Positions 2,713 to 60,863 of a DNA stretch of 64,000 nucleotides are shown piece after piece (position 1 is the first letter of the stretch; each line of letters begins with the position of its first letter). The notes beneath the pieces are model-generated. The model made no database searches and was not told the DNA's origin. It saw nothing but the letters and a program-made list of their open reading frames with translations. The position numbers and the translations under genes were made by a program. The DNA comes from an endosymbiont of Escarpia spicata. GTDB lineage: Bacteria > Pseudomonadota > Gammaproteobacteria > Chromatiales > Chromatiaceae. The stretch lies in NCBI GenBank assembly GCA_003349915.1, contig QFXE01000008.1:248001-312000 (forward strand), written 5' to 3'.

Positions 2713-3909
2713 ATGGAAATCGCACCGCTGAAATTGAAGAAAGACCGTGAGCGCCGTCTGCACGCCGGTCACAGCTGGGTGTTCAGCAATGAAGTCGATA
2801 TCAGTGCAACGCCTTTAACCGCTTTCGAGCCGGGCCAGCCGGTGGAGATTATCAGTCACCGGGGGAAATGGTTGGGCACCGGGTATGTAAATGCTCACTC
2901 ACTTATTTGTGCAAGGCTCGTCAGCCGCGACCGCGAGCATCCATTGAGCCAGTCGTTATTGGTGCATCGCCTGAAAGTTGCATTGGGACTGCGTGAGCGG
3001 CTCTACCCCACTCCCTTCTATCGGCTCGTTTTTGGTGAGAGTGACGGTCTGCCCGGCCTGATCGTGGATAGATATGGCGATCAGGTTGTGATCCAGATCA
3101 CCACTGCGGGTATGGAGCGCATCAAGAATGAGATCGTCGCTGCCGTGGAGAAGGTACTGAGACCGGCAGGTGTGCTGTTTCGCAACGACACCTCGACCAG
3201 GGGAATGGAAGGTCTGGAAAGTACTATCGAAACAGCGGCTGGCGACGTGCCTGAATGGCTGACGCTGGAAGAGAACGGCACAGAGTTTCAGATTTCTTTG
3301 AAAAAAGGGCAAAAAACCGGCTGGTTTTACGATCAACGCGAGAATCGCCGCCGGATGCTTAAATATATTTCCGGCAAAAGAGTGCTCGACGTCTGTAGCT
3401 ATACAGGAAGCTGGGGGGTTGCTGCAGCCAGGAATGGCGCCAGGGAAGTGCATTGTGTCGATTTGTCGGCGCCTGCACTGGAGCAGGTTGGGCTAAATGC
3501 CGAACGCAATGGCGTAGCAGACCGGATTCAGGTTCATCAGGGGGAGGCGTTCGCAGTGTCGAAGGCGCTGCGACAGGCAAGGGAGCGTTTCGATGTTGTG
3601 TTGCTGGATCCGCCCGCATTCATCAAGCGTCGCAAGGATCAGAAAGAGGGGGAGCTGGCATACCGGCGCCTCAATCAAGCTGGCATGCAGGTGTTGGAGC
3701 GGGATGGCGTGCTCGTCAGCTCCTCCTGCTCGCATCATATGTCGGGAGAGAAGCTGTTGAGCAGAATACAGCAGGGCGCGCGCCACCTGGAACGCAGCTT
3801 GCAGTTGCTGGAAAGCGGCCAGCAGGGAATGGACCATCCCATCCATCCGGCGATTCCGGAGACGGCCTACCTGAAGAGTTACTTTCTGAGAGTGCTGCCG
3901 GTCTTTTGA
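2713..3909 (+). CDS. rlmI: 23S rRNA (cytosine-C5) methyltransferase, RlmI type
   Basis: SAM-dependent m5C methyltransferase expected to modify 23S rRNA C1962. The 398 residues comprise an N-terminal PUA domain (about 1-80), a linker domain, and a Rossmann methyltransferase domain from about 210. SAM motif I is VLDVCSYTGSWGVAAA, the target-binding motif is DPPAFIKRRKD, and SSSCSHHMS near residue 338 supplies the catalytic cysteine region typical of RlmI. It is convergent with the XRE regulator gene, with a GC-rich hairpin between them. Confidence 0.92.
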   Translation: MEIAPLKLKKDRERRLHAGHSWVFSNEVDISATPLTAFEPGQPVEIISHRGKWLGTGYVNAHSLICARLVSRDREHPLSQSLLVHRLKVALGLRERLYPTPFYRLVFGESDGLPGLIVDRYGDQVVIQITTAGMERIKNEIVAAVEKVLRPAGVLFRNDTSTRGMEGLESTIETAAGDVPEWLTLEENGTEFQISLKKGQKTGWFYDQRENRRRMLKYISGKRVLDVCSYTGSWGVAAARNGAREVHCVDLSAPALEQVGLNAERNGVADRIQVHQGEAFAVSKALRQARERFDVVLLDPPAFIKRRKDQKEGELAYRRLNQAGMQVLERDGVLVSSSCSHHMSGEKLLSRIQQGARHLERSLQLLESGQQGMDHPIHPAIPETAYLKSYFLRVLPVF

Positions 3910-3917
3910 ATACGGGC

Positions 3918-3937
3918 CGGGGCGCACAAGCGCCCCG
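3918..3937. terminator. GC-rich hairpin between convergent genes
   Basis: CGGGGCGC and GCGCCCCG form a perfect 8-bp stem with an ACAA loop, midway between the stops of rlmI and the convergent regulator. No run of T follows on either strand, so intrinsic termination is plausible rather than certain. Confidence 0.45.
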
Positions 3938-3948
3938 ATAACCTTGCC

Positions 3949-4323
3949 CTATTTCTTGGACGAGTGGAGCAGCGCCTGCTCAAAAATGTTACGCTTGATC
4001 CGCGTGCGGATGGGTTCAGGAAGCCGCTGCCAGGCTTTTGCGACTTCGACGGCATCGTCGTCGAGCGATGGGCCTGATTTCTCGCCGAACATCAGCCAGG
4101 CTGGATTGACGTCCAGTACCTGAGCAATTTCGTCGATCTTGCGGGGCCGCAGACTCTTGCCATTCTCAATCTTTTGGATCACGGCTTGATTCGTGCCTGC
4201 CCGTAAGGCGAGTTCTTCCTGGGTCCAGCCGCGCTCACGGCGCTTTCTTCTTAATCTTGAACCTAGTGTTTCCATATTTCTTGGTATATAAGTCTCAAAG
4301 TGTTGTGCATGTGCGTAAGTCAT
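3949..4323 (-). CDS. XRE-family transcriptional regulator
   Basis: A 124-residue DNA-binding protein. A Cro/C1-type helix-turn-helix occupies about residues 20-75: RLRRKRRERGWTQEELALRAG, then NQAVIQKIENGK as recognition helix. A short helical tail follows. The ATG at 4323 has a strong AGGAAGGG Shine-Dalgarno; the internal Met at 4275 matches the usual domain start but has a weaker site. It is divergent from lgt across a 238-base AT-rich spacer, where it might bind. The target is unknown. Confidence 0.85.
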   Translation of the reverse strand: MTYAHAQHFETYIPRNMETLGSRLRRKRRERGWTQEELALRAGTNQAVIQKIENGKSLRPRKIDEIAQVLDVNPAWLMFGEKSGPSLDDDAVEVAKAWQRLPEPIRTRIKRNIFEQALLHSSKK

Positions 4324-4561
4324 ATCCCTTCCTGGTCTCGGATGAAGTGGAGTACTGCATCGTCTGACTTACTTAACGGCCGGGGAATCAAAATCTTGAC
4401 ACTTTGCGAAAAGCAGTCACATTTTTTGTGAATCTTATTCCAGAAAACCTGAAAAATGGGAACCACGTCACATAATTTTACCATCATTATGGGTAGACGA
4501 TAGCTAAATCGATTAGTTCCGGCAAAGTTCATGAATTCTATTCCTGAGGTTATATCCACAA

Positions 4562-5425
4562 ATGTTGACATATCCTGATATCGATCCTGTTCTGATTGCA
4601 CTGGGACCGCTCAAAATTCACTGGTACGGTGTGATGTACCTGGTTGGATTCTGGTGCGGCTGGTGGCTTGGCCGCGTGCGCGCAAAAAAACCGGGCAGTG
4701 GCTGGACGGTCACGCAAATCGATGACCTAGTTTTCTATATAGTAGTAGGCGTGGTGCTGGGCGGTAGGCTCGGGTACACACTTTTCTATGGTTTCCCCCG
4801 TTTTATTGAAGATCCTGTGACCCTGTTAAAAGTTTGGGAAGGGGGAATGTCTTTTCATGGCGGTCTGTTAGGGGTGTTGATGGCCATGTGGCTCTTTGGT
4901 CGCAAGTATGGGCGAACCTTTTTTGAGGCCACGGACTTTATTGCCCCGCTGATACCGATTGGTCTTGGTGCAGGACGTGTGGGTAACTTTATCAACGGTG
5001 AGCTTTGGGGGGGAGTGACCCGTTTGCCTTGGGGCATGCAGGTGCCCTGCGTAGAGGCGGGTGATCTCTGCAGTCGGGCCGGGGTTGCCGTTGATGGCAT
5101 CCACTCACTGCCGGTACACCCGAATCAACTCTATGAGGTACTGTTGGAAGGGGTGGTGCTCTTTCTGGTGTTATGGATTTTTTCCGCCCGAGGCAGACCG
5201 CGTATGGCGGTTTCGGGACTCTTCCTTCTCTGTTACGGTGTCTTCCGCTTTGGGGTGGAGTTCGTGCGTATGCCTGATGCCCATTTCGGCTACCTGGCAT
5301 TCGACTGGGTGACAATGGGGCAGTTGCTGAGCCTGCCGATGATCCTGTTCGGTATTCTGCTGCTGATCCTGGCTTATAGAAACAGATCAGCAATGGATGA
5401 GGGGCGCCATGAAACAGTATCTTGA
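4562..5425 (+). CDS. lgt: Phosphatidylglycerol-prolipoprotein diacylglyceryl transferase
   Basis: Inner-membrane enzyme that adds diacylglycerol to the lipobox cysteine of prolipoproteins, the first step of lipoprotein maturation. The 287-residue polytopic protein has the N-terminal [12 protein letters not shown] helix, [19 protein letters not shown] and the family signature [13 protein letters not shown] near residue 140, then HPNQLYE. The 3' end overlaps thyA by 17 bases, and thyA overlaps folA, so the three form one operon. Membrane-protein and folate/thymidylate genes in this order are common in gammaproteobacteria. Confidence 0.96.
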
Positions 5426-6203
5426 CCTGATGAGGCATGTGCGGGATACCGGCACGGTCAAAGGGGACCGAACCGGCACCGGGACGCAGAGTGTCTTCGG
5501 TTACCAGATGCGTTTCGATCTGTCGGTGGGTTTCCCCGCGCTGACGACCAAAAAACTGCATTTGCGCTCGATCATCCACGAACTGCTCTGGTTTTTGCAG
5601 GGCGATACCAATATCCGCTATCTGAAAGAGAATGGGGTGCGCATTTGGGATGAATGGGCGGACGGGAATGGCGACCTGGGTCCTGTTTATGGCTACCAGT
5701 GGCGTTCATGGCCTGCACCGGGTGGGCGCAGTATCGACCAGATCAGCCAACTGGTGGAGCAGATTCGCAGCAATCCGGACTCCCGCCGTCTCATGGTGAC
5801 CGCCTGGAATCCAGCGGATGTGGACGAGATGGCGCTGCCCCCCTGCCACTGCCTGTTCCAGTTCTACGTGGCGGATGGCAGGCTCTCCTGCCAGCTCTAC
5901 CAGCGCAGTGCGGACATCTTTCTCGGCGTGCCGTTCAATATTGCCTCCTATGCCCTGCTGACCATGATGATGGCCCAGGTGACAGGGCTGCAGCCGGGGG
6001 ATTTTGTGCATACCTTCGGCGACGCCCATCTCTACTCCAACCATCTTGAACAGACCGATCTGCAGTTGAGCCGCGAGCCGCGCAATCTGCCACGCATGCG
6101 CATCAACCCGGAGGTGAAGGATATCTTCGGCTTTCGCTTCGAAGACTTCGAGCTTGTCGATTACGATCCGCACCCGCACATCAAGGCGCAGGTTGCCGTA
6201 TGA
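5409..6203 (+). CDS. thyA: Thymidylate synthase
   Basis: Methylates dUMP to dTMP with methylene-tetrahydrofolate, producing dihydrofolate. I chose the ATG at 5409 because [11 protein letters not shown] aligns with E. coli ThyA and gives the same 264-residue length; a GAGGGGC Shine-Dalgarno sits just upstream, and the in-frame ATG at 5397 would add a non-homologous tail. Motifs are [19 protein letters not shown], the catalytic cysteine in [14 protein letters not shown], and [20 protein letters not shown]. The following gene, folA, recycles the dihydrofolate it makes and overlaps it by 4 bases. Confidence 0.97.
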
Positions 6204-6709
6204 ATGGAGATGGCCCCATTATCTCCCTGATCTGGGCGATGGCAGAGAACCGGGTGATCGGGCGCAATAACCAGCTGCCCTGGCATCTCTCCGCAGATCT
6301 ACAGCATTTCAAACGGCTCACGCTGGGCAAGCCCATCGTGATGGGGCGTAAGACCTGGGAGTCCCTGCCGGGACTGTTGCCGAAGCGGCAACATATCGTG
6401 GTCACCGGCAATCGGGGCTATCGGGCGGAGGGCGCCCTGGTGGTTCACTCCATTGATGAGGCGGTCGCAGCTGCGGGGGATGCACAGGAGATCATGATTG
6501 TCGGCGGCGGTGCCTTTTATGCTCAGATGTTGCCGCGGGCGGGCCGGCTCTATCTCACCTTGGTGCATACGGAGGTGGAGGGTGATGCCTGGTTTCCCGA
6601 ATTTGATCTGTCGGCATGGCGGGAAGTCGGGCGGGAGGATTTTTCCGCTGACGAAAAAAACCGCTTTGCCTATAGTTTTATTACCCTCGAACGTAAAAAA
6701 GAGCTATAG
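6200..6709 (+). CDS. folA: Dihydrofolate reductase
   Basis: NADPH-dependent reduction of dihydrofolate to tetrahydrofolate. The 169-residue protein shows the Met20-loop region [16 protein letters not shown], the catalytic Asp in [11 protein letters not shown], the nucleotide-binding [16 protein letters not shown], and [13 protein letters not shown]. The start overlaps the thyA stop (ATGA). Bases 6548-6586 of this gene recur as an isolated 39-base copy at 10719-10757. Confidence 0.97.
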
Positions 6710-6771
6710 CCTGCTCAGGAAGATGCGGCTGGACCATTCTCAAAAATGCTACTCTCACCTGACTCAGGCGC

Positions 6772-9227
<2,456 letters not shown>

Positions 9228-47401: not shown

Positions 47402-48961
47402 TCAGTGCCGGAAGTGGCGCATGCCGGTAAAGACCATGGCCATGCCGTGTTCGTTCGCGGCAGCGATTGCCTCGTCATCGCGCATGGAGCCACCGGGTTG
47501 GATCACTGCGGCGATACCTGCCTCTGCAGCGCTGTCGATGCCGTCCCGGAAGGGGAAGAAGGCGTCGGATGCCATCACGGAACCCTTCACTTCCAGGCCG
47601 GCATGTTCCGCTTTAATGCCGGCGATGCGGGCGGAGTTGATGCGGCTCATCTGACCAGCGCCGACACCGATGGTCATGCCGTCCCTGCCGTAGACGATGG
47701 CGTTGGACTTGACGAACTTGGCGACGCGCCAGGTAAAGAGCAGATCACGCATCTCCTCATCGGTGGGCTGGCGTTCGGTGACGACCTTGATCTCGTTGGT
47801 GAGTTGCAGGTCGGCGTCCTGTACCAGCAGACCGCCGTTGACGCGCTTGAACTCGGTGCGGTGCAGTGCTTCGACATTCCACTCGCCACACTCCAGCAGG
47901 CGCACATTTTTCTTGCTGCTGACCGCTTCGATGGCTGCGGCGGAGAGTTTGGGCGCGATGATCACCTCGACGAACTGCCGGTCGACGATGGCCTGGGCAG
48001 TCTCGCCATCCAGTTCGCCGTTGAAGGCGATGATGCCGCCGAAGGCGGATTCCGGATCGGTGCTGTAGGCGCGATCATAGGCTTCGAGCAGATTGTCGCC
48101 GAAGGCCACGCCGCAGGGGTTGGCGTGCTTGACGATGACGCAGGCTGGACCCTCATCAAAATTCTTTACGCACTCCAGGGCCGCGTCGGTATCACCGATG
48201 TTGTTGTAGGAGAGCTCCTTGCCCTGGATCTGTTTAGCGGTGGCGATGCACGCCTCTTCGACCTTGTGTTCAACGAAGAAGGCCGCCTTTTGGTGCGGAT
48301 TCTCGCCGTAGCGCATGGTCTGCACCTGCTTGAACTGCATGGAAAAGGTGCGGGGGAAATCCGCTACCTCTTCGCCGGTGCGAGCGCCCAGGTAGTTGGC
48401 GATGGCTGCATCGTAGCGGGCGGTGTGTTCGAAAGTCTTTACCGCCAGGTCAAAACGGGTGGCAGCCGAGATATCCCCGTCGTTGCCGTCCATCTCCTCC
48501 AGAACCCGCGCATAGTCTGCGGCGTCCACCACCACGGTGACGTCCTTGTGGTTCTTGGCGGCGGCGCGAAGCATGGTGGGACCGCCGATGTCGATATTCT
48601 CGATGGCGGTCGGCAGATCGCAGTCGGGATTGGCCACGGTTTGCTCAAAGGGGTAGAGGTTGACCACGATCAGATCGATATTGCCGATACCGTTTTCTTT
48701 CATTACCAGGTCGTCGGTGCCCCGCCGGCCGAGAATGCCGCCGTGAATCTTGGGGTGCAGGGTCTTGACCCGCCCATCCATCATCTCCGGGAAGCCGGTG
48801 TATTCGGAGACCTCGATGACAGGGACATTGTTGTCGGTAAGCAGCTTGGCAGTGCCGCCGGTGGAGAGGATTTCAACGTTTTTTTCGGCCAGGCTGCGGG
48901 CGAATTCCACGATGCCGGTCTTATCGGAAACGCTGATCAGGGCGCGGGTAATCGAAGACAT
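47402..48961 (-). CDS. purH: Bifunctional AICAR transformylase / IMP cyclohydrolase
   Basis: Last two steps of IMP synthesis. 519 residues: an N-terminal MGS-like cyclohydrolase domain ([43 protein letters not shown]) and a C-terminal AICAR transformylase domain with [28 protein letters not shown], and [14 protein letters not shown]. It follows fis on the same strand after a 180-base spacer containing a GTAGG palindrome. The order dusB-fis-purH is conserved in gammaproteobacteria. Confidence 0.97.
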
Positions 48962-49036
48962 GATAGGTCTATCCGTTTGTTTGGAAGGTTAATGAAAGGG
49001 TAACTATTTATTCACCAGGGCGTCTTGAAGATAATG

Positions 49037-50421: not shown

Positions 50422-50754
50422 ATCGACGACGAGATCGAGTCCGAAAATCGAGGGGAAAGGCGATAGATAATAGCGCCATTTTCAGGGTGAATCAAAGGTT
50501 CATGGATATTTTTTTGATTATTGCTACAGTGGTAAAAATGCAACAAAGTTGGCAGTGATCGATTTTCTGCGTCATAATTTACCAGGCCTGTTAACACTAT
50601 GCGGATGCCTAGCAGTTCATTAGTCCGATAGCTCTGCTCTTTGTCCGTAACGGGTTGACATCTAGGGGTTAAATTCATACTCTGAACTGCGTCATGTAAT
50701 ACACACTTGGGAAGCATTCTTCCCTCAATTGATATGGATGAAGCGCTTCGTCAG

Positions 50755-51073
50755 CGGGCGCGCAAGGAGCATAAATTACTCATCGAGTTGCGCTGCAATC
50801 CCCCCCCAAACCAGTTAAGTGGAACAAGATCGAACATCGTTTGTTCTGCCACATCACGCGCAGCTGGCAAGGCGCTTCGCTGAAAAGTCACGAGACCGTA
50901 GTTAATTTTTTTGGCCCTATGAAAACCAAAAAAGGCGAGGAAATTCACGCCGGGTTTGGCGAAAGCCAGTTACGAAAAATCGAAGAGGACCAGTGATGGC
51001 TGATATACAGAAGCACGAATTAAACGCGGCACATTTCATGACGAATGGGATTGCCAAATCGTGTCTATAAGAA
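50755..51073 (+). pseudogene. ISAzo13-type transposase remnant (C-terminal part, frameshifted)
   Basis: Translating pieces in different frames gives RARKEHKLLIELRCNPPP, then (from 50820) WNKIEHRLFCHITRSW and continuing GASLKSHETVVN, then (from 51034) FHDEWDCQI. These match the C-terminal blocks of ISAzo13-family transposases, where the consensus is close to HFPPGTSKWNKIEHRLF and ends FHxEWNY. At least two frame changes separate them and no N-terminal part is present, so it is a dead fragment. It lies at the dusB side of the 51-61 kb island. Confidence 0.75.
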
Positions 51074-51112
51074 AAACTAACAATCAGTAACTTCACTTTT
51101 TGCAGGTTCTTC

Positions 51113-52552
51113 ATGGTTAATTTCCGCATCTCCCAGCACCCGGTAAAAGCGTTGTTGTGTCTCTTGGTACTGATGGCCGGGACTCTCCCGAGCATGTCAT
51201 CCTGGGGAGCCTTGACCGTCGAAGCACCGAAACCGGGGCAGTTTCGCGCGCCGTTCGACAAGCGTCGCGGAATTCACAGCTATGCCGATCTTGTGGACGC
51301 AACGGTTGGCGCCATTGTCCGTATCAATAATTGGCAGAAGGTTGAACACAAAGATAAAAAGACAAAGAAGAAAGAGTATCGTCTAGAACCGGCGAGTCTT
51401 GGCTCCGGCGCATTCTTCGATGCAACGCGGCGTCTGGCGGTCACCAACCACCATGTGGTCGAAGGCGCCGAAAAGCTGACCGTGCTTCTATCCGACGGGC
51501 GCGAGGTTCCGGCACGCCTGGTCGGTGCTGACAAGATGACGGATATCGCCGTCGTGCAACTCAATGAGTCCCCCGCGCAGGCGCTGAATTTCGTCGATTC
51601 CTCGACCGTCAGGACAGGCGACGTGGTGTTCGCGGCCGGCTCGCCTGTCGGACTCGATTTCTCGTACTCCATGGGAATCGTCAGTGCGACCCAGAGAAGC
51701 CTGGGGAAAGGCGGAGTCGAGGCGTTCATCCAAACGGACGCGGCAATCAACGGGGGAAACAGCGGGGGTCCGTTGCTGGACACTGCCGGCCGCATTGTTG
51801 GGATCAACACACTGGAACTCGCGAAAAAAGGGAAACGCACTATCGATGGCATCGGTTTCGCAGTGCCCTCCGATATCGTGGTCCGGGTGATTGAGCGTTT
51901 GATCGAGAACGGGCGTCTGCGCCGGGCCTACCATGGGTTGGAGAAAGGCGCCTCCCTCGCCAAATTGATGGCTGATAAATCTGTTCGCAAAATACTGCTT
52001 AAAGAGTTGAAGGTGTCCGTCGACAGTGGTGTTTTTGTCATGGAGATCAAGCCCGGCTCGCCGTTCTTCAATGCGGGAATCCGAAAAGGCGATATCATCA
52101 CGGGAGCCGGGGAAGAGCGCATCGATAATCTCCATGATATTGTGAATTTCGTGTCTATGGTCGAGGTCGACAACCGCTATCCGCTGGTCTTCATGCGCGA
52201 TGGCGCTCCCCACCGTGCATACCTCTCGTTTTCAGCCAGGCACGAGTTGAAACCGAAAGGGAAGACGAAGCAGTACCTCCAGTTCACCCACCACTTTCAT
52301 GCAGTGTTCACCGAGCAACCGAAACGCTTTGACCGAAGTGATACCTGCAGGGGCGTCTCGGTCGCCTACGTCGACGAAAAGAAGGCGGTCGGGAAGAACC
52401 GGCTTCGGGTTGGGGATATCGTCACGGCCGTGGACAGTAAAGGAATCCACGATCTTCAGACCCTGGACAAGAGCTTGAACGGCCGGCGCCTCGAGGTTCC
52501 GGTCGTCCTTTGCCGCAAAGATCGAAAGATGACACTTTCCCTCGTCCCGTGA
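51113..52552 (+). CDS. Deg/HtrA-type periplasmic serine protease with two PDZ-like domains
   Basis: 479 residues. Signal peptide (ALLCLLVLMAGTLPSMSSWG), then a trypsin-like domain with catalytic His in VTNHHVVEG (about 115), Asp in TDIAVVQL (about 145) and Ser in NGGNSGGPLL (about 221), then a PDZ domain near 315-375 (FVMEIKPGSPFFNAGIRKGD) and a second, weaker PDZ-like region at the C-terminus (LRVGDIVTAVDSKGIHDL). Unlike DegP there is a long lysine-rich insert (KDKKTKKK) before the His motif. It is the first gene of the island, 96 bases before the vWA gene and on the same strand, so it may process or guard envelope partners. Confidence 0.85.
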   Translation: MVNFRISQHPVKALLCLLVLMAGTLPSMSSWGALTVEAPKPGQFRAPFDKRRGIHSYADLVDATVGAIVRINNWQKVEHKDKKTKKKEYRLEPASLGSGAFFDATRRLAVTNHHVVEGAEKLTVLLSDGREVPARLVGADKMTDIAVVQLNESPAQALNFVDSSTVRTGDVVFAAGSPVGLDFSYSMGIVSATQRSLGKGGVEAFIQTDAAINGGNSGGPLLDTAGRIVGINTLELAKKGKRTIDGIGFAVPSDIVVRVIERLIENGRLRRAYHGLEKGASLAKLMADKSVRKILLKELKVSVDSGVFVMEIKPGSPFFNAGIRKGDIITGAGEERIDNLHDIVNFVSMVEVDNRYPLVFMRDGAPHRAYLSFSARHELKPKGKTKQYLQFTHHFHAVFTEQPKRFDRSDTCRGVSVAYVDEKKAVGKNRLRVGDIVTAVDSKGIHDLQTLDKSLNGRRLEVPVVLCRKDRKMTLSLVP

Positions 52553-52648
52553 AACCCGTTTGGATGGGGCAGGGCGATCCAGGTGTCTGGAATCAGGCGG
52601 CCAGAGGTTTAGACGCGTTATAAAATTATTTCAAATCGGGGAGATACA

Positions 52649-55060
52649 ATGCGAAGGAAATCGAAAGCAGAGGGGAAGGGTGTGGCCTGGCTGAGGTCCG
52701 TTGCCGTCGCGGCCGTCCTGGTGTTTTTCGTTGGTGGGGCGAGTCTTGCTGCGGAAAAGGAGGGCGACGCGGGCGCGCAGACTGCACCGTCGACCCCGCA
52801 ATCAGGGGAAACTTTGAAGGAGCCGGCGCTACCGGGCGAAACAGCCCCGAAGAACGGCGCCTTGGTACCTGAGCAGCTCCCGCCGAAGGAGCCTGTCCCC
52901 CCGGCTGGCGGTACCGCCAACTCCGGACAGGACGGGGCGGAAGCGGCGCCTGGAGATACGGATGTGCAACGGAAAACCGAAACCGGTGGTGGTGCGGCTG
53001 AGAGCCAGAAGCGCGTGGCCGGCGACGATCCGACTTTCGTGCCGTCCGGCATTACCTGCGCGGGTGGGCGCACACCCTGCATCGTCGATCAGACGGCGCA
53101 GGCGTTGAGAATCATTACGCGAACCGCAACGCCTCTTTATGCTGATGCGGACGAGAAGGGGACGATCCGCTCCGACGCCGTCGCGGCCTTCCAGCCGACG
53201 TTCGTCTTTGAGCGCAAGGATCTTGATTTCTCCGATCCGGTCGCGCCGAAGGGATGGTATCGGGTCGGCTACACTGCGACGACCCCGATCGGCTGGATGA
53301 AAGCGGCCGATGTTATGGAGTGGCGTCAAGCTCTGCTTGTTGCCTTTCTGCATCCGGGCACGGGGACCGATCGCCGCATGCCGGTCCTGCAATTCGAAAC
53401 CAGAGAGGCTCTCAAGGAAGGGGTGGTGCGGGCGAATGACCGCGTGGGCCGGGCCAAAGCGCTCTACGACACTCTGTCGGCGTCGAAGAAACCAGCCGGC
53501 GTGATCGCCACGGAGCCCCCTGAGTTCATCGATATCGATGACAGGTTCTATCTCATGCCCATCCTGGAATGGGAGGCGGAACCCCGCTATGAGGATTCCC
53601 ACTATCTTCGTATCATGAACGCTGTACCGGGCAGCCGCGCAGAGCCGGGTGAAGGGACCCTTGAAGATTCCGAGGTCTTGAAAGAACCTCTTCGCCGGGA
53701 TGGCCGCGACATCAAGGACCTGCGGGTCGATATCAAGTTTGTGATCGATATGACCGGCAGTATGCAACCTTATATTGATCAGGTTGCCGAAGCAGCGGGC
53801 AAATTGGCGAGTAGGATCGAGAATGGCAGTCCCGGTGACTTCGCCAAGTTCGGTCTGATCGGGTTCCGGGACAGTGTGGAGATAAGCCCTGGTTTGAAGT
53901 GGACGACCAAGAACTTTACCCCGGAACTGGTCGACGCGGGCGGGCTGAGCGACTTGCTGAAAAACGGCGGCCAACCGTTGGCGGCCGATGTGACGAGCGA
54001 CGAATGGCGCGAAGATGTTTTTGCGGGCGTACGGCTGGCCTTGCAAAGCCCCTGGTCGACCGAGTCCAATGAGGACGGCAATGTGCGCCGGGTGATCGTG
54101 TTGATCGGCGACGCGAGCGGCCATGAAGCCGACTCCACGAAGAGTTCCACAGGCATGACGCCCGAACACCTTCGGCAAATTGCCAACCAGTCGAACACGC
54201 TGATCTCGACTTACTACCTCAAGGATGGTGTAGCCGCTGCCGATTGGCCGGTGGGAATCGAGCAGTTCTCCATCCTGGGCCGCAATCAGTCAAGCGAGGC
54301 TGACGGGAAGCTAGGCTCGCACGAGATCGAGGTCACCCGGATAGGGGAACTTTCCTTTCAGTTCGACAGCATTGCAAAAGTCGTCGAGGAGCTGGGCAAA
54401 CTCGTCGCCGCCGGCAACAACAAAGGCGCCAAGGGGTTCGCCAAGGATGGCCAGGCGCTGCCCCGCAGCGAGGTTCCCAAAGGCGTCGACAAGGACTCAG
54501 CCGAGGCCGGCGCCGCGGTGATTGAGAATGTCTTCCGGGCCGCCGTGATTGAGTATCTTGGGTCCGATGGCGCTCCCGGCAAGGATTTCATGGCCTGGGT
54601 TCATGACTTTGATCTTCAGGACTCGTTCACGCAACGCCTTGAAATCCGCGTTCTGGTATCCCGGCAGGTCATGGATAACATCATCCGGCAGACACAAACC
54701 ATCTACGATGCGATGGTCACCGCGAAACAAGCCCGGATGGATTTCTACACCGCGCTGCAATCTGTGTCGGCACAAACCGCGCTCGGGCAGGATGTCACTG
54801 CGGATGCCACGCTCGGCGAACAGGGTTTTCTGCCTAAATGGGTGTCGGCTCTTCCCTATCGAAGCGAGGTTCTTGGCTTGAAGCCCAGGGCATTGGCTGA
54901 AATGTCGGAGACCGACAAACACCTGTTCGAAGCGCGTCTAAAATCCAAGTTGAAGAGTTACCAGGACATTTTCAATAACTCAGGACGTTGGATCGAACTG
55001 GACGAAGGCGGAGATGACCTTCAGAAGGTGACTGCCCTGCCCTTGACATTACTGCCGTGA
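52649..55060 (+). CDS. Exported vWA protein resembling the periplasmic part of PpkA
   Basis: 803 residues with a GGGGAG Shine-Dalgarno. A signal peptide or anchor (VAVAAVLVFFVGGASLAA) is followed by a Pro/Ala/Gly-rich linker to about 125, an SH3-like segment (GWYRVGYTATTPIGWMKAADV, about 190-225; only part quoted: WYRVGYTATTPIGWMK), and a von Willebrand A domain whose MIDAS reads VIDMTGSMQPYI near residue 366. The T6SS kinase PpkA has an N-terminal cytoplasmic kinase, a membrane helix and a periplasmic vWA part of this kind. Here no kinase motifs exist, so only the sensor half is made. Downstream TagT-, TagS- and TagR-like genes support the comparison, since TagQRST act with PpkA in Pseudomonas aeruginosa. 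Confidence 0.75.
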   Translation: MRRKSKAEGKGVAWLRSVAVAAVLVFFVGGASLAAEKEGDAGAQTAPSTPQSGETLKEPALPGETAPKNGALVPEQLPPKEPVPPAGGTANSGQDGAEAAPGDTDVQRKTETGGGAAESQKRVAGDDPTFVPSGITCAGGRTPCIVDQTAQALRIITRTATPLYADADEKGTIRSDAVAAFQPTFVFERKDLDFSDPVAPKGWYRVGYTATTPIGWMKAADVMEWRQALLVAFLHPGTGTDRRMPVLQFETREALKEGVVRANDRVGRAKALYDTLSASKKPAGVIATEPPEFIDIDDRFYLMPILEWEAEPRYEDSHYLRIMNAVPGSRAEPGEGTLEDSEVLKEPLRRDGRDIKDLRVDIKFVIDMTGSMQPYIDQVAEAAGKLASRIENGSPGDFAKFGLIGFRDSVEISPGLKWTTKNFTPELVDAGGLSDLLKNGGQPLAADVTSDEWREDVFAGVRLALQSPWSTESNEDGNVRRVIVLIGDASGHEADSTKSSTGMTPEHLRQIANQSNTLISTYYLKDGVAAADWPVGIEQFSILGRNQSSEADGKLGSHEIEVTRIGELSFQFDSIAKVVEELGKLVAAGNNKGAKGFAKDGQALPRSEVPKGVDKDSAEAGAAVIENVFRAAVIEYLGSDGAPGKDFMAWVHDFDLQDSFTQRLEIRVLVSRQVMDNIIRQTQTIYDAMVTAKQARMDFYTALQSVSAQTALGQDVTADATLGEQGFLPKWVSALPYRSEVLGLKPRALAEMSETDKHLFEARLKSKLKSYQDIFNNSGRWIELDEGGDDLQKVTALPLTLLP

Positions 55061-55070
55061 TTACGGGGCC

Positions 55071-55832
55071 ATGACTTCGGACATCGTCAGGCTTCGCGAT
55101 GTAAAACGGTACCGGGGAGGCGGCGAGCGGACCTTCGAGCTGGTCGTCCCAGAACTGCGTATCGAACGCGGCCGCTTCGTGGCCTTGGTCGGAGCGAGCG
55201 GTTCGGGCAAGAGTACGCTCCTGGATCTGTTGGGTCTCGTCCTAAGGCCCAGTGCGGGCGGGACGTTCCTGTTCTCGCCGGATGGAGAAGGTGTCGGCAC
55301 TGTTGATATCGTCGAAACCTGGCGGCAGGGTAACGACGATCCGCTGGCCGCCTTGCGTCGACGCTCGATCGGCTACGTTTTGCAAACCGGGGGTCTGATC
55401 CCGTTCCTGGATGTGTCCCACAATATCGGGCTGCCGCTGCGCCTGCTTGGGCGGAAGCCCGAGGGCCGGACGATCTCCGCAGCCCTTGAGCGTTTAGGCC
55501 TTGGGGGGTACGAAGAAAAGATGCCGTCAACGCTTTCCGGCGGTGAGCGCCAACGGGTGGCGATCCTGCGTGCCTTGGCTCATGGTCCCGCGATGGTGCT
55601 GGCCGATGAGCCGACGGCCGCCCTCGACCGGGAACGGGCCCGGCATGTGGTCGAGCATTTTCGTGAACTGGCGCAAGCTCAAGGGACCGCGATCGTGATG
55701 GTGACCCATGACGAGCAATTGGTGTCGGGCCTCGCTGATATGGTGGTGCGTTTCAATCGTGTCTCGACGCCCGATCACGCGGGCACTATTCGTTATATCA
55801 GCGATGTGACGGCAGGAGATTTCGTGCAGTGA
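55071..55832 (+). CDS. TagT-like ABC transporter ATPase (LolD/MacB class)
   Basis: 253 residues. Walker A GASGSGKST (about 43), Q-loop in YVLQTGGLIPF, ABC signature LSGGERQR (about 157), Walker B MVLADEPTAALD, and H-loop VTHDE. The class is that of LolD/MacB ATPases paired with FtsX-like permeases. It starts 10 bases after the vWA gene and its stop overlaps the permease start (GTGA). By order and partners it corresponds to TagT of the T6SS threonine phosphorylation pathway; a lipoprotein exporter is the alternative. Confidence 0.8.
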   Translation: MTSDIVRLRDVKRYRGGGERTFELVVPELRIERGRFVALVGASGSGKSTLLDLLGLVLRPSAGGTFLFSPDGEGVGTVDIVETWRQGNDDPLAALRRRSIGYVLQTGGLIPFLDVSHNIGLPLRLLGRKPEGRTISAALERLGLGGYEEKMPSTLSGGERQRVAILRALAHGPAMVLADEPTAALDRERARHVVEHFRELAQAQGTAIVMVTHDEQLVSGLADMVVRFNRVSTPDHAGTIRYISDVTAGDFVQ

Positions 55833-57682
55833 CCGGGCCCACTTCACCTGTTTCCAGGATGGAGATCCTGAGATTGGCGATCGCCGATCTCCGAGCCGAG
55901 ACATTATTGACTTTCTGCCTGATCGGGTCGCTCGCGGCAATCGGCGCACCGCTACTCATCCTGGACGGGTTGCGGACAGGAATCGTGGAATCGTTACGCC
56001 AGGACTTGGTCGGTGATCCCGTCTTCCGCGAGGTGCGCCCGGCCGAGACACGACCATACGATGAAGCCTTCTTCGCTGCCCTAAGGGCGCGATCCGACGT
56101 TGATTTCGTCATGGAGGGAATCACCCGTGGAGCGAGTTCGATCATTGTTTCCGCCAGCGACGCAGCAAGTTCGGAAGCGGGCCCAAGGGTGGAGAGCGAG
56201 ACCATACTGGATATGCTGCCGACCGCACCCGGCGATCCACTGCTGACTTCTTACGCTGCGCAGGTCCCGGATGCGGGGGGAGCGGTTTTGTCGGCCGAGG
56301 CGGCGGTGCAACTGAAGGTGAAGCTGGATGACCGATTGACGTTGGAAATCGGGCGTCAGCGCGCCAGTGCCCGCGAGGTCGAGACCGTCGAGGCGTGGGT
56401 GAAAGGCGTTTTGCCGGCAAGGGCCGATCCGCTGCCCAGGATCTACCTCCCCTTCGCTTTGGTGCGTGACATCGAAACCTACCGCGAGGGATATGCGGTG
56501 TCGGAACGGGACTGGCCGGGGTCGCCACCCGACGTCGCTCCCGGCTTCGACGGGCTCTATATCCTGTCCGAGCGGCCGCTGAAAGCCACCGTGCAAAGCC
56601 GCCTGCAAACCTTGACAGGCTTTTTTATCGGCGAACCCGGGGAGCCGGATGGTTTCGTGAAACGTCTCGGCATGACTTTTCCCGAAGAGCAATCGGTGTT
56701 CCGGTTGTCGGCGATCGAACGCCTGGCGGGTCCGGAAGTGTTGCGCCGGGTGATCAGCGTCCTCCGCGGGCAGAATTACGACGTGTTTCCCTATGTCGAC
56801 CATCTGGTCGTTACGATCGAAGGCCCCGGTGGGGAGATGAACCCGGCGTTGCCTGTCCGAACCTCCGACAATCTACGTCACCTGTTTGAGGCGCCTGTCG
56901 CCGAGATAAACCGGATCCAGGTTCCGGCCGACCTCGGATACCGGGTCGGAGAGACGGTCACGCTGATAGCGGCGACCGACGGGGATCCGGTCAGGGTGCC
57001 AGCGGTGATTGCGGGTCTGTCTGAAAATCCGCCGGTGCAATTCGTCGAGCTTTCGGCGGCACTCGGCGGCATGCTGCGGCGCGGCCAGAAGCAACGGGTG
57101 CGGTATGATTCGCTGACAGATCGGTTGCGGGTCGAACGAACCAGTTTCCGGGGCTTTCGTCTCTATACCGAGACCATCGATCAAGTGCCGGCACTCGTGC
57201 GTCATATGCAAGGGCTTGGGATTGATGTGGTGGCCCAAGTCGGTACGATCGAGCGGATCCTGCTCCTCGATCAGGGGCTGATGCGCCTTTTTCTGATCAT
57301 CGCGATCATTGGTGGTGCAGGGGCTTCGGTGGTGCTCTTGACCAGTCTCTATGCAGCGGTCGAGCGCAAGCAGGCCAGCCTCGGCCATCTCCGCATTCTC
57401 GGTATCAGCAGAGGCGATATTTTCGTGTTTCCTGTTTACCAGGCCTTGATCATGGCCTTGGTTGCCGTCGCCGCCGCGGCCCTTTCGGCTCATATCATCG
57501 CGGCACTGATCAATACGTTCCAGGCCGAACAACTCGGATTAAAGGGGGATATCTGCCGCATCACGTTGGACGCACACGTCTATGCTTGCCTGATTGCGCT
57601 GGGACTCTCCTTCACCTCGTCATTCTTTGCGGCTTTGCGCGCGACCCGAATCGATCCCGCCGATGCGATGCGTCAGGAGTGA
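55829..57682 (+). CDS. TagS-like FtsX-type permease
   Basis: 617 residues. One N-terminal helix (about 20-45, TLLTFCLIGSLAAIGAPLLIL), a large periplasmic region of about 430 residues, and three C-terminal helices (LFLIIAIIGGAGASVVLL, FPVYQALIMALVAVAAAAL, ACLIALGLSFTSSFFAAL) ending with ATRIDPADAMR, the typical tail of FtsX/MacB permeases. The GTG start overlaps the ATPase stop. TagS in Pseudomonas works with TagT and positions TagR and PpkA in the inner membrane; this protein has the same layout. Confidence 0.78.
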   Translation: MTGPTSPVSRMEILRLAIADLRAETLLTFCLIGSLAAIGAPLLILDGLRTGIVESLRQDLVGDPVFREVRPAETRPYDEAFFAALRARSDVDFVMEGITRGASSIIVSASDAASSEAGPRVESETILDMLPTAPGDPLLTSYAAQVPDAGGAVLSAEAAVQLKVKLDDRLTLEIGRQRASAREVETVEAWVKGVLPARADPLPRIYLPFALVRDIETYREGYAVSERDWPGSPPDVAPGFDGLYILSERPLKATVQSRLQTLTGFFIGEPGEPDGFVKRLGMTFPEEQSVFRLSAIERLAGPEVLRRVISVLRGQNYDVFPYVDHLVVTIEGPGGEMNPALPVRTSDNLRHLFEAPVAEINRIQVPADLGYRVGETVTLIAATDGDPVRVPAVIAGLSENPPVQFVELSAALGGMLRRGQKQRVRYDSLTDRLRVERTSFRGFRLYTETIDQVPALVRHMQGLGIDVVAQVGTIERILLLDQGLMRLFLIIAIIGGAGASVVLLTSLYAAVERKQASLGHLRILGISRGDIFVFPVYQALIMALVAVAAAALSAHIIAALINTFQAEQLGLKGDICRITLDAHVYACLIALGLSFTSSFFAALRATRIDPADAMRQE

Positions 57683-57687
57683 CCAGA

Positions 57688-59409
57688 ATGAAGACCTCTG
57701 CCAAAGTGACTTTCTTGCGACCCCAGGCCGGGTGGCGCGTGCTGTTATTGTGTCTCGGTCTCTGCTTCGGTTGGGCGCTGGATATGTCCGAGGCTATCGC
57801 GCAGTATCGCTGCCACGGCAAGTTGGCCGAAGGGGCCACGCCGAATGCCCTCGATAATCCATGTCCCGATCCTGCGGGGGATCTGGTCATGCCGATGCCG
57901 GGTGGACTGTCGATGGTATTTCGAACGGTGGCGGTACCGGGCAAGAATTATTGGGGGGCTGCCGATCGCAACATCGTCCTGGGTCATCCAGAGGCACCGA
58001 TTTTCGAAGCTCAGCAAGGGGTCACTGTCGCCGGCTCGTTCAAGGCAGAAGACGGAACCTGGCGCATCGTCCTGGGTAAATATGAGGTGACGACCGCTCA
58101 GTTTGCCGCAGTCCTCGGTCAAGGGGATATCGCGGTCGGGATCGCCCATCTCGTGCGATCCAGTGGCGAACTCGAAGAATATACCGCCCTTCAGAAGCCG
58201 GGGCTTGATCCGTTCGATCGCGAACGGTTACTCGCAAAGCCGGTCTCCGGCATTCCGTTGCGGGACTACCAGGCGTTTATCGAAGCCTATACCGCCTGGT
58301 GTTATGACGATGCCGCCTGCCGGGCCGCGATGCCGACATTTGGCTCGATGCCGGGTTTTTTTCGATTGCCGACTGAGATCGAATGGGAATACGCGGCCCG
58401 GAACAACGATGATCAGTATTCCGACAGGTTGCCGTTTCCCCTGGAAAAAACCACGGAATTCGGGCGTATTTCGTCAGGGCGGCGGATCCATTCGGAAACC
58501 ACTCTCATCGGCCGGCAATGGGCGATCAACGGTTTCTACGACCTGTTCGGCAATGTCGAGGAGTTGTCCGATGACCGTTTCGTGACGGAACTAGCCGGAG
58601 GAAAGTCGGGTTCCCGGGTCGGACGTGGAGGTAACTTCACCGACACTGCAAAAGACTTGCGGTTGTCCATGCGCCGGGAAATTCCGGTTTGGCGGGCCGA
58701 TGGGGATCGATTGGTCGAAACGCGCAGTCCGCGCGTCGGGATTCGCCTTGCCATCGGCAGTCCTAACATCCCGGACCGAGTGGTTTTCGATCAGATCGAA
58801 AAGGAGTACGAGACATGGCGTGGTTCGCTGGCGAAAATGCAGAGTGCATCGGGCCGCAGCACCCAGGCGAGCCTGCTTGGTGCTGATGAACCACTGCGCC
58901 GTATCGAGGAGCTTCTGCCAGATCTCGTCCGCCGCAATCCCGGTTTGGCGGAGGATGTTCGGAGGATCAACGCGCAGGTGATTGAAGCACGTGTCCAGCT
59001 GGTCCGCACGACCGAGGACCTCGTTAAGCAACTGACGGAGAATACGGTCAAGGCTGCCGCCGAAGTTGGCCGGACCTTGTCCGAGTTGGGGCGGGCTAAG
59101 CGCTCCCTCAAGCTTATCAAAAAATCGAAAGAGTCACTGGCCAGTGCCGGACGGCTTGAACGGCGCCTCTCCTATTTACAGGAACAGTACAGCGCGTTGT
59201 TCAAGGCCTATTCTGACCAGATCCAGACGCTGGCCAGCTATCGCGACTTTGCCGATGAACGCCTTGCCATTATGGCGAAAGCACGGAACACGCGCTACGT
59301 CGTGCTTGGTCTCGAGCTATCGACACGCCACGTCGGGGATGTCCTCAACGGGACGGTCGATCTGGATCGCTGGCAGGATGACATACGCACCGGATTTGGT
59401 GCAAAATAA
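57688..59409 (+). CDS. TagR-like FGE/SUMF1-domain periplasmic protein
   Basis: 573 residues from the ATG at 57688, chosen for the AGGAG Shine-Dalgarno and because it starts a signal peptide (VLLLCLGLCFGWALDMSEAIA). An FGE-sulfatase domain spans about 60-390: LGKYEVTTAQFAAVLG, FFRLPTEIEWEYAAR, GFYDLFGNVEELSDD, GRGGNFTDTAKDLRLSMR. A C-terminal coiled-coil of about 170 residues follows (LGRAKRSLKLIKKSKESL). The catalytic cysteines of formylglycine-generating enzymes are not evident at the usual positions, so a binding role is likelier, as for TagR, which activates PpkA from the periplasm. Confidence 0.78.
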   Translation: MKTSAKVTFLRPQAGWRVLLLCLGLCFGWALDMSEAIAQYRCHGKLAEGATPNALDNPCPDPAGDLVMPMPGGLSMVFRTVAVPGKNYWGAADRNIVLGHPEAPIFEAQQGVTVAGSFKAEDGTWRIVLGKYEVTTAQFAAVLGQGDIAVGIAHLVRSSGELEEYTALQKPGLDPFDRERLLAKPVSGIPLRDYQAFIEAYTAWCYDDAACRAAMPTFGSMPGFFRLPTEIEWEYAARNNDDQYSDRLPFPLEKTTEFGRISSGRRIHSETTLIGRQWAINGFYDLFGNVEELSDDRFVTELAGGKSGSRVGRGGNFTDTAKDLRLSMRREIPVWRADGDRLVETRSPRVGIRLAIGSPNIPDRVVFDQIEKEYETWRGSLAKMQSASGRSTQASLLGADEPLRRIEELLPDLVRRNPGLAEDVRRINAQVIEARVQLVRTTEDLVKQLTENTVKAAAEVGRTLSELGRAKRSLKLIKKSKESLASAGRLERRLSYLQEQYSALFKAYSDQIQTLASYRDFADERLAIMAKARNTRYVVLGLELSTRHVGDVLNGTVDLDRWQDDIRTGFGAK

Positions 59410-59444
59410 TCGCTATCCAACAAAAATGAAGAAGGAGTTGAGAG

Positions 59445-60236
59445 ATGACGATACAAAAGACGCGGCTCACGGGCGGCATATTGAAAACCATGGCAGTCTT
59501 GATTGCGACGTCCTTCCTTTTGGGGCCGACGGCGGTGACCGCAGCTTGGTCCTTTGACGACCTCACAAAAGGTGCTGGCGATATGTTCGATTCAGCGAAG
59601 GGCGCTTTCGATGGTGGGAATGACGGAAACGTGGAGAGTGGCGAGCCGACCCTGTCGCGGACCACGCTTCAGGGTTGCGCGGCTGGAGGGGTCACAGCCG
59701 CTATCCTGGATAAATTTGACCTTCTCGGCGACGGCAATCCGCTGCTGAAAGTTGGTGTGGGAACCTTGGTCGGTTGCACTGCCGGTTACTTGCTCAACCA
59801 GCGTCGCGAGGAGTATGCGAATAAGGCCGATTTCTACGATGCACAGATTGAACAGAGCGAGAAAAACAACGAATCCCTTGCGAAGTTCAACGACGAGGTC
59901 GAGAAGGAGATCGTGCGCAACAAGGGGATCATCAAAGGTTTGAAGAGCCAGAAGACGCGTTCCAGCGAGGCGAAGAAGAAGGCGAAGGAGAGCCACGCGC
60001 GAAGCAAGGCGAACGCCGAAATTGCCGAGAAGGAGCTCGCCTTAGCCCGCAAGGAGGCTGAAACCCAGAATGAAGTGTTGAAGGAGATGCGTGCCGTTCC
60101 TGCTCCCAAGGCCGATGCCGGGAGAATTCGGGATCTTCAGGTAGAAGTCGATACCCTCAACAGCCATGTCTCCGATCTCGAGGCTATGGTTGCCGAAATC
60201 GCCGACCAAAGGGACGTTATCGGGACCTATGGTTGA
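59445..60236 (+). CDS. Exported glycine-zipper, coiled-coil protein
   Basis: 263 residues with an AAGGAG Shine-Dalgarno. Signal peptide (AVLIATSFLLGPTAVTAAW), then two glycine-rich helical segments (GCAAGGVTAAILDKF; KVGVGTLVGCTAGYLLNQ) like a glycine zipper, then a long charged coiled coil (about 125-255) rich in Lys, Glu and Ala. Likely periplasmic and associated with the membrane. No family name is certain; TagQ-region proteins and the OmpA-linked glycine zippers are possible relatives. It follows the TagR-like gene by 35 bases. Confidence 0.65.
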   Translation: MTIQKTRLTGGILKTMAVLIATSFLLGPTAVTAAWSFDDLTKGAGDMFDSAKGAFDGGNDGNVESGEPTLSRTTLQGCAAGGVTAAILDKFDLLGDGNPLLKVGVGTLVGCTAGYLLNQRREEYANKADFYDAQIEQSEKNNESLAKFNDEVEKEIVRNKGIIKGLKSQKTRSSEAKKKAKESHARSKANAEIAEKELALARKEAETQNEVLKEMRAVPAPKADAGRIRDLQVEVDTLNSHVSDLEAMVAEIADQRDVIGTYG

Positions 60237-60265
60237 ATTACCTGTTTTAGGACGAGGAGGTCCAT

Positions 60266-60811
60266 ATGTGTGATTGCATCAGGATGGCGATACCCAATGG
60301 TAAGAGCGCCAGGTTGTTATTGCCGGTCGGATTCGTCGTCGCGTTCCTTGCCGGTTGCGCAACAACCGACCCCCGGGAGGACAATATAGTATCGGCGATA
60401 GCCGGCGCGGGTGGTGGACACGAAAAGTATATCGACAATCAGAAAACCCACCTTGGTCAATCCAAACTGCAGGTCGAACAGCAGGAGAGTCAGAAACAGG
60501 GGAATGTGGCGCTTCTGACGGCGACGGAGGCCGAAATCGCCGAGTTGCGCCAGGATATTGGCAACCTGGAAAAAGACATCGCGTCCTATCAGGCGCGGGT
60601 GGAATTGACGCGCAGAAAAGGCACGGTTGATCGAAAGAAACTGGCCGGTCTCGAGCAGAAGTTCCGCCAACTGCAGGATGACACGAAACGCCTCGATCGG
60701 GACGTCGAGATGATGCACAAGAGCGAAGCGATCCTGCGGGAACGACTCGGTTCGTTGGAGGTAAAAAGGAAAGAACTGCTGGCAGTTCTGGATATGCTAT
60801 CGGGCGGGTAG
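60266..60811 (+). CDS. Coiled-coil lipoprotein, TagQ-like by position
   Basis: 181 residues with a GAGGAGG Shine-Dalgarno before the ATG. A lipoprotein signal peptide ends in a lipobox (VAFLAGC, Cys at about 31), and residues after the Cys (ATTD) lack Asp at +2, favouring outer-membrane sorting. The rest is heptad-rich coiled coil. In the Pseudomonas tagQRST operon TagQ is an outer-membrane lipoprotein; this gene sits at the end of the corresponding run, but homology to TagQ cannot be shown by eye. It is the last gene of the island, 52 bases before the convergent DUF3426 stop. Confidence 0.65.
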   Translation: MCDCIRMAIPNGKSARLLLPVGFVVAFLAGCATTDPREDNIVSAIAGAGGGHEKYIDNQKTHLGQSKLQVEQQESQKQGNVALLTATEAEIAELRQDIGNLEKDIASYQARVELTRRKGTVDRKKLAGLEQKFRQLQDDTKRLDRDVEMMHKSEAILRERLGSLEVKRKELLAVLDMLSGG

Positions 60812-60863
60812 TCCGGTTCGCAGCAGCAGCGCCCCACCGCTCCCGGATTATGGCTGAGTATCG

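Follow-up and report, generated by a model that had tools for sequence, protein, structure and literature searches.

In Pseudomonas, TagQRST-type genes tell a type VI secretion system (T6SS) when to fire. What, then, does a similar set of genes do in a bacterium in whose genome we found neither of the T6SS markers searched for nor a PpkA-like kinase? The question is raised by a six-gene operon at 52649-60811 in a 64,000-nucleotide stretch of DNA (the window, by which we mean the whole stretch analyzed) from an endosymbiont of Escarpia spicata, a member of the Chromatiaceae (contig QFXE01000008.1, positions 248,001 to 312,000). To our knowledge, it is not settled even in Pseudomonas how TagQRST senses attack or what TagST does. 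Our preferred answer, to which we give a probability of about 0.45, is that the operon encodes a stand-alone, mechanotransmitting envelope sensor of the MacB/FtsEX kind with periplasmic proteolysis as its output, and that it represents a separate kinase-less clade built on the chassis of TagQRST and the vWA half of PpkA.

The operon and its counterparts in Pseudomonas

All the features that the initial annotation had listed for this region were found where it had placed them, as six open reading frames (ORFs) on the + strand encoding, in order, proteins of 803, 253, 617, 576, 263 and 181 aa. The first gene (52649-55060) encodes a periplasmic vWA protein homologous to the periplasmic half of PpkA. 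It is followed by genes for a TagT-like ABC ATPase of the LolD/MacB class (55071-55832; PF00005, E 2e-24), a TagS-like permease of the MacB/LolC class with four predicted transmembrane (TM) segments (55829-57682; PF02687, FtsX/LolC, E 3e-8) and a TagR-like exported protein that joins a pseudo-FGE domain to a C-terminal coiled coil (57679-59409; PF03781, E 4e-13), with all three Pfam matches above their cut-offs and 4-base overlaps at the ATPase/permease and permease/FGE junctions. The last two genes encode a TagQ-like exported protein with a glycine zipper and coiled coil (CC1; 59445-60236), which has a signal peptide without a lipobox, and a coiled-coil lipoprotein (CC2; 60266-60811), whose lipobox, LAGC, was read from the sequence. 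Export-type signals start the vWA, FGE, CC1 and CC2 proteins. The operon region yielded no gene for a kinase, a phosphatase or a T6SS component, Rfam and tRNA searches gave no matches, and promoter and terminator scans did no better than on shuffled sequence. A defense system was considered and rejected: PADLOC gives no match for the vWA, TagS or CC1 protein, and its matches to the ABC ATPase, the coiled coils and a neighboring HtrA-like protease appear generic.

Judged by profile comparison, it is nearly certain that the main parts are homologous to the vWA, TagT, TagS and TagR proteins of Pseudomonas. The window-type vWA protein aligns with residues 418-1024 of PpkA (hhalign E 3.4e-69), so that the whole periplasmic half is matched, as the initial annotation had supposed; an extracellular vWA domain of PpkA has been described (PMC3224232). 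The protein consists of an N-terminal strand-rich part that is possibly SH3-like, the vWA domain with its MIDAS motif, and a C-terminal domain. The vWA domain is divergent, and the window protein taken alone falls under the Pfam cut-off (VWA_2, E 0.0019), while the MIDAS residues D367, T369 and S371 are invariant in our 24-member family alignment (A1). The AlphaFold2 (AF2) model of the whole protein is weak (pLDDT 59, pTM 0.41), so we used only the structural match of its vWA core, to integrin I domains. A Sec-type hydrophobic N-terminus, of the cleaved signal peptide type, is followed by no further TM segment, and the protein therefore cannot itself reach the cytoplasm.

When the A1 profile was run across 299 Pseudomonadaceae genomes it picked up about 53 ORFs for kinase-vWA fusions, nearly all of about 1000-1190 aa and mostly of about 1000-1150 aa, with E values between 1e-194 and 1e-203 and matches that span profile positions ~24-670. 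In fused PpkA the vWA stretch forms the C-terminal ~600 residues, after the kinase; in the one protein scanned for TM segments, a single one is predicted, at residues 331-349. Of ten kinase-fused loci that we fetched, nine show the order tssM-(tagF)-pppA-ppkA-tagT-tagS-tagR, although in a few of them tagF, pppA or the ATPase is not listed separately, ORF pruning having removed overlapping frames; the tenth (L190) lacks Tag genes. In the four loci read further, the gene after tagR encodes a glycine-zipper lipoprotein resembling TagQ. We assign these as Pseudomonas-type T6SS loci from their gene content and from the relatedness of their genomes to one that showed 94% identity over a stretch of 16S.

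The TagT, TagS and TagR identities proposed earlier were likewise borne out by profile comparison. The ATPase, with Walker A (GASGSGKST), signature (LSGGERQRV) and Walker B (VLADEP) motifs, is 46-52% identical to Pseudomonas TagT (hhalign E 1.2e-68). The permease aligns with Pseudomonas TagS over 394 columns (E 3e-62), with a gap at an insert: some 430 residues lie between its first and second TM segments, and they include an additional periplasmic stretch of ~200 aa (window residues ~241-440) that has no counterpart in T6SS TagS. Is this insert a copy of the first periplasmic domain? Profile comparison gives no support for that; the predicted secondary structure of residues 361-419 resembles that of 151-219. 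The TagR-like protein aligns with TagR over 497 columns (E 1.1e-43). An active FGE was rejected, as the cysteine pair is absent: the window FGE domain has no cysteine in its C-terminal part, and the window, Srf and T6SS members share no conserved one. The domain is therefore best read as one for binding or scaffolding. CC1 matches the TagQ profile (probability 97.9, E 3e-13) in low-complexity sequence, and its Azospirillum homologue (in L055) is a lipoprotein.

The AF2 model of TagS (pLDDT 72, pTM 0.59) shows a type VII fold in which the MacB-class layout is kept, and Foldseek matches it to LolCDE, MacB and FtsEX. With these ABC systems the window system shares a four-TM permease, stalk helices, a periplasmic domain and a separate ATPase; it differs in its vWA and pseudo-FGE partners and in the enlarged periplasmic domain. 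Because the closest structural matches of the model are LolCDE and MacB, and because the operon encodes a coiled-coil lipoprotein (two in L055), we considered whether it could be a transporter that, with its periplasmic factors, moves or inserts specific surface lipoproteins and senses nothing. However, there is one permease only and no LolA or MacA adaptor gene in the operon, and the ATPase and permease match TagT and TagS, which are signaling proteins (PMC6657622). We think such a role quite unlikely.

Kinase-less members across the family

The 4.06-Mb genome, which has a completeness score of 100, contains no TssC (PF05943) and no TagF (PF09867). SrfB (PF07520) is also absent, although the search detected it in two control genomes, G162 and G136; the operon itself lacks SrfA and SrfC, for which no genome-wide search was made. 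The genome encodes four Hanks-type kinases, all on contigs other than that of the operon: a kinase-HDOD protein, a PP2C-kinase, a kinase with a TPR match beside a caspase-like gene, and a kinase beside PP2C and YicC-like genes. None of the four has a vWA half by Pfam or appears among the vWA-profile matches in the genome. The initial annotation had allowed that an intact PpkA/T6SS cluster elsewhere might make the operon merely a displaced part of it; with neither TssC nor TagF in the genome, and with no PpkA architecture in any of the four kinases, that reading is rejected, and an origin as a displaced part of SrfABC is rejected for SrfB. As a separate observation, genes for a caspase-like protein, a Ser/Thr kinase and a CsgG-domain protein are adjacent on contig C6 of this genome (G000, locus L003).

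Might the operon instead sense like TagQRST and signal through an unlinked Ser/Thr kinase, or another cytoplasmic partner, acting in trans? In Pseudomonas the same chassis serves to activate a kinase (PMC6657622, PMC3224232), and in a hydropathy scan three of the four kinases have a strongly hydrophobic stretch after the kinase domain, although in L001 this stretch overlaps the HDOD domain and probably does not span the membrane. In Azospirillum (L055, 5967-9302), moreover, a window-type operon is divergent from a cluster that encodes a PP2C phosphatase, a TerY-like vWA protein and a protein that resembles a kinase but has no match to a Pfam kinase model. On the other hand, the four kinases are all unlinked, with the HDOD, PP2C or TPR/caspase-neighbor architectures or the yicC and PP2C neighbors just described, and the vWA protein is confined to the exported side. 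We regard signaling through such a partner as unlikely in this bacterium, if still deserving of weight.

How common are kinase-less arrangements? Members of the vWA family, near full length or as clear fragments, occur in 26 of 369 sampled gammaproteobacterial genomes, in four contexts: with a TM and TPR-like protein (type A), SrfABC-linked, T6SS-linked, and window-type. A scan of the genome collection added 14 window-type loci, whose hosts, sulfur bacteria among them, include Thiotrichaceae, Chromatiaceae, Sedimenticola, Contendobacter, Azospirillum and Syntrophobacteraceae, and a survey of gene order of the kind first suggested for this operon thus found it recurring in most of them. Most window-type loci read vWA-ATPase-permease (600-630 aa)-FGE-CC1-CC2 with no SrfABC or T6SS genes nearby, CC2 homologues hold the same position in most complete operons, and the order is present in two phyla. 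In a Thiotrichaceae pair (L090, L091) the FGE gene lies 3' of the coiled-coil genes; in L092 and L101 the vWA gene stands by itself, and some loci are cut by contig ends. In the L035 and L094 loci a 1450-1460-aa exported protein (4507-8892 and 3285-7637, respectively), which in L035 carries NHL repeats and a HELFH motif, is encoded between the vWA and ATPase genes.

In a careful tree of 51 rows, from which the long-branched L089 and L190 were excluded and in which the window row's own branch is long (2.0), the 16 window-type rows come out as a single deep clade (100/100), separate from the TPR-linked, SrfABC-linked and T6SS-linked groups, and the type A rows likewise all fall together (100/99). 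In a quick tree the Pseudomonas fusions cluster with L054, and the T6SS locus of Tistrella mobilis pTM1, where two neighboring genes encode kinase and vWA separately, lies outside them. (L040 and L054 have their upstream context cut by contig ends, and the L054 frame runs off its contig.) Kinase fusion was seen in the T6SS group only, whereas members of the window-type, type A and SrfABC groups as a rule have no kinase; midpoint rooting served for drawing only, and on any root outside the T6SS clade the fusion is the derived state. The earlier suggestion that the vWA protein had been split from its kinase is not upheld by this distribution. In addition, none of 20 TagF/T6SS loci across Gammaproteobacteria has a TagRST or vWA homologue, which means that T6SS loci do not carry this module in general.

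The nearest known relative in layout is the TagQRST-PpkA set of the P. aeruginosa-type H1-T6SS, with homologous TagT, TagS, TagR and PpkA vWA half in the same order, vWA-TagT-TagS-TagR-TagQ. By comparison, the window system lacks a kinase domain, PppA, TagF and a T6SS, its vWA protein is soluble and exported, and it adds the TagS insert, an extra lipoprotein and HtrA. T6SS-less tagQRST/ppkA genes beside srfABC were reported from host-associated Deltaproteobacteria in 2013 (PMC3608642), and TagQRST without a T6SS was therefore known in outline. Such SrfABC-linked operons, which occur in those Deltaproteobacteria, in Pseudomonadaceae, on many enterobacterial plasmids including those of Klebsiella and Leclercia, and in L036 and L037, likewise have a kinase-less vWA protein followed by an ATPase, a permease, a pseudo-FGE protein and, mostly, coiled-coil proteins, but they differ from the window system in their Srf genes and their vWA proteins fall in a different clade. 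Among the PLSDB plasmids (L056, L057, L058 and others; 114 Klebsiella records matched), Klebsiella and Leclercia carry SrfABC and then a vWA-ABC-permease-SUMF1 operon, and some records label the vWA protein a serine/threonine kinase although it is the vWA half only. Type A sets (TM and TPR-like protein, vWA, ATPase and a permease of ~405 aa) share the kinase-less vWA protein and the TagT/TagS-like pair, but have the TM/TPR-like protein in place of FGE or coiled-coil genes and form a different clade. They are widespread in gammaproteobacteria; relatives in L048 and L049 are flanked by conserved housekeeping-type genes, and one such set is a second kinase-less module in the window genome itself (L041, contig C9, 8187-13097). 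In the open-access papers searched, we came across no account of the window-type clade, of its enlarged TagS or of an association with peptidases.

An inserted island with intact genes

The operon forms part of an inserted island of ~10.3 kb (50546-60854) between dusB and a DUF3426 gene. In four congeneric genomes (G667, G668, G669 and G670) these two genes directly adjoin one another, the alignment to the empty site stopping at 50545 and resuming at 60851-60855, and the island is cleanly absent. A fifth congener, G671, has the whole island at 96.3% nucleotide identity, so that two of the six congeners, counting the window genome, are occupied. The island holds a 58-codon remnant of an ISAzo13-family transposase at its left edge (50820-50993, + strand; PF07592, E 4.3e-14), an HtrA/DegP-like periplasmic serine protease (51113-52552, + strand) and the six operon genes. 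The initial annotation was thus right about the six genes but began the unit too late, missing the protease within the same insertion. That protease has a signal peptide, a trypsin domain with intact His, Asp and Ser motifs (NHHVV, DIAVV and GGNSGGP) and PDZ domains (PF13365, E 7e-29; PDZ_2, E 2e-16; TIGR02037, E 4e-90 but under its curated cut-off). To the left of the island, a 532-codon open frame at 47405-49003, antisense to purH and without a Pfam match, is probably a coding-strand shadow.

Between the window and G671 the seven proteins are each 94-99% identical, with ratios of nonsynonymous to synonymous substitution (dN/dS) of 0.03-0.21 (0.14 for the protease). All seven genes are intact, and the ratios show that all are under purifying selection and none is decaying. 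This bears on a reading in which the operon is a remnant of a T6SS or SrfABC system, a displaced half of something larger, with the vWA protein split from its kinase as the initial annotation had inferred. Its homology to TagQRST and the periplasmic half of PpkA would fit such a history, as would the transposase remnant at the island edge, and Tistrella pTM1 shows that a split kinase/vWA pair exists. Selection on intact genes, a separate deep clade with one gene order in two phyla, and a genome without TssC, TagF and SrfB all speak against it, and we judge it very improbable.

Envelope peptidases and a possible output

If neither a kinase nor a secretion system is at hand, where would the output of the module lie? 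An exported-type peptidase lies near 11 of 17 window-type loci versus one of 57 loci of other types (Fisher 3e-8), and near seven of 11 window-type lineages after near relatives were merged by eye (Fisher 2.6e-6), although the peptidase queries were picked after viewing window-type neighborhoods, so that the contrast is biased upward and exploratory and its p-values are not confirmatory. An S41 gene lies 3' of CC2, directly or one gene later, in L055, L093, L096, L098 and L103; an M23 gene lies upstream in L090, L091, L099, L100 and L102, and HtrA takes this place in the window locus. Peptidoglycan hydrolases are under the control of FtsEX, an ABC system of this class (PMC11627006), and members of the MacB class do work in the periplasm by mechanotransmission rather than transport (PMC5985334). 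The recurrence of peptidases and these analogies lead us to infer a system that both senses the envelope and acts on it, within the periplasm.

In the sensor that we propose, a disturbance of the envelope would be sensed by two outer-membrane subunits, the TagQ-like protein and the lipoprotein, together with the TagR-like pseudo-FGE protein. They would then engage the soluble vWA protein, by metal-dependent binding at its MIDAS motif, and the enlarged periplasmic domain of TagS, and ATP turnover by the TagT-like ATPase would be coupled to these events through mechanotransmission of the MacB/FtsEX type. The output would not leave the periplasm: the system would control an envelope peptidase, HtrA in the window and an S41 or M23 peptidase in relatives. 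The signal sensed, the direction of coupling and the peptidase as output are all inferred.

Besides the choice of queries, several observations weigh against periplasmic proteolysis as the output. The peptidase families vary by locus, and no peptidase was detected in four lineages (L035/L094, L092/L101, L095 and the truncated L097). In L090 and L091 the M23 gene is set apart from the operon by opposite-strand genes, and in the window HtrA could simply have been carried along with the island. The kinase-like, PP2C and TerY-like neighbors in Azospirillum also make a kinase acting in trans possible in some hosts.

The frequent position of the sensor beside a periplasmic protease suggests that it is a part that can be reused with different outputs. 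We entertain, tentatively and at somewhat less than even odds, the broader view that vWA-TagT-TagS(-TagR-TagQ) is an old, general chassis for envelope signaling with exchangeable outputs: a T6SS kinase, SrfABC, a TM/TPR-like protein or, in the window-type clade, a periplasmic peptidase addressed without phosphorylation via the enlarged TagS. The use made of it by the Pseudomonas T6SS would then be a derived special case. That a kinase-free clade keeps vWA, TagT, TagS and TagR together shows that they are a selected unit without PpkA, and the clade offers a simpler system for the biochemistry of these parts. If the link to peptidases is true, these operons would constitute a new family of envelope-stress responses, and the triggering of T6SS would be one use of a general module.

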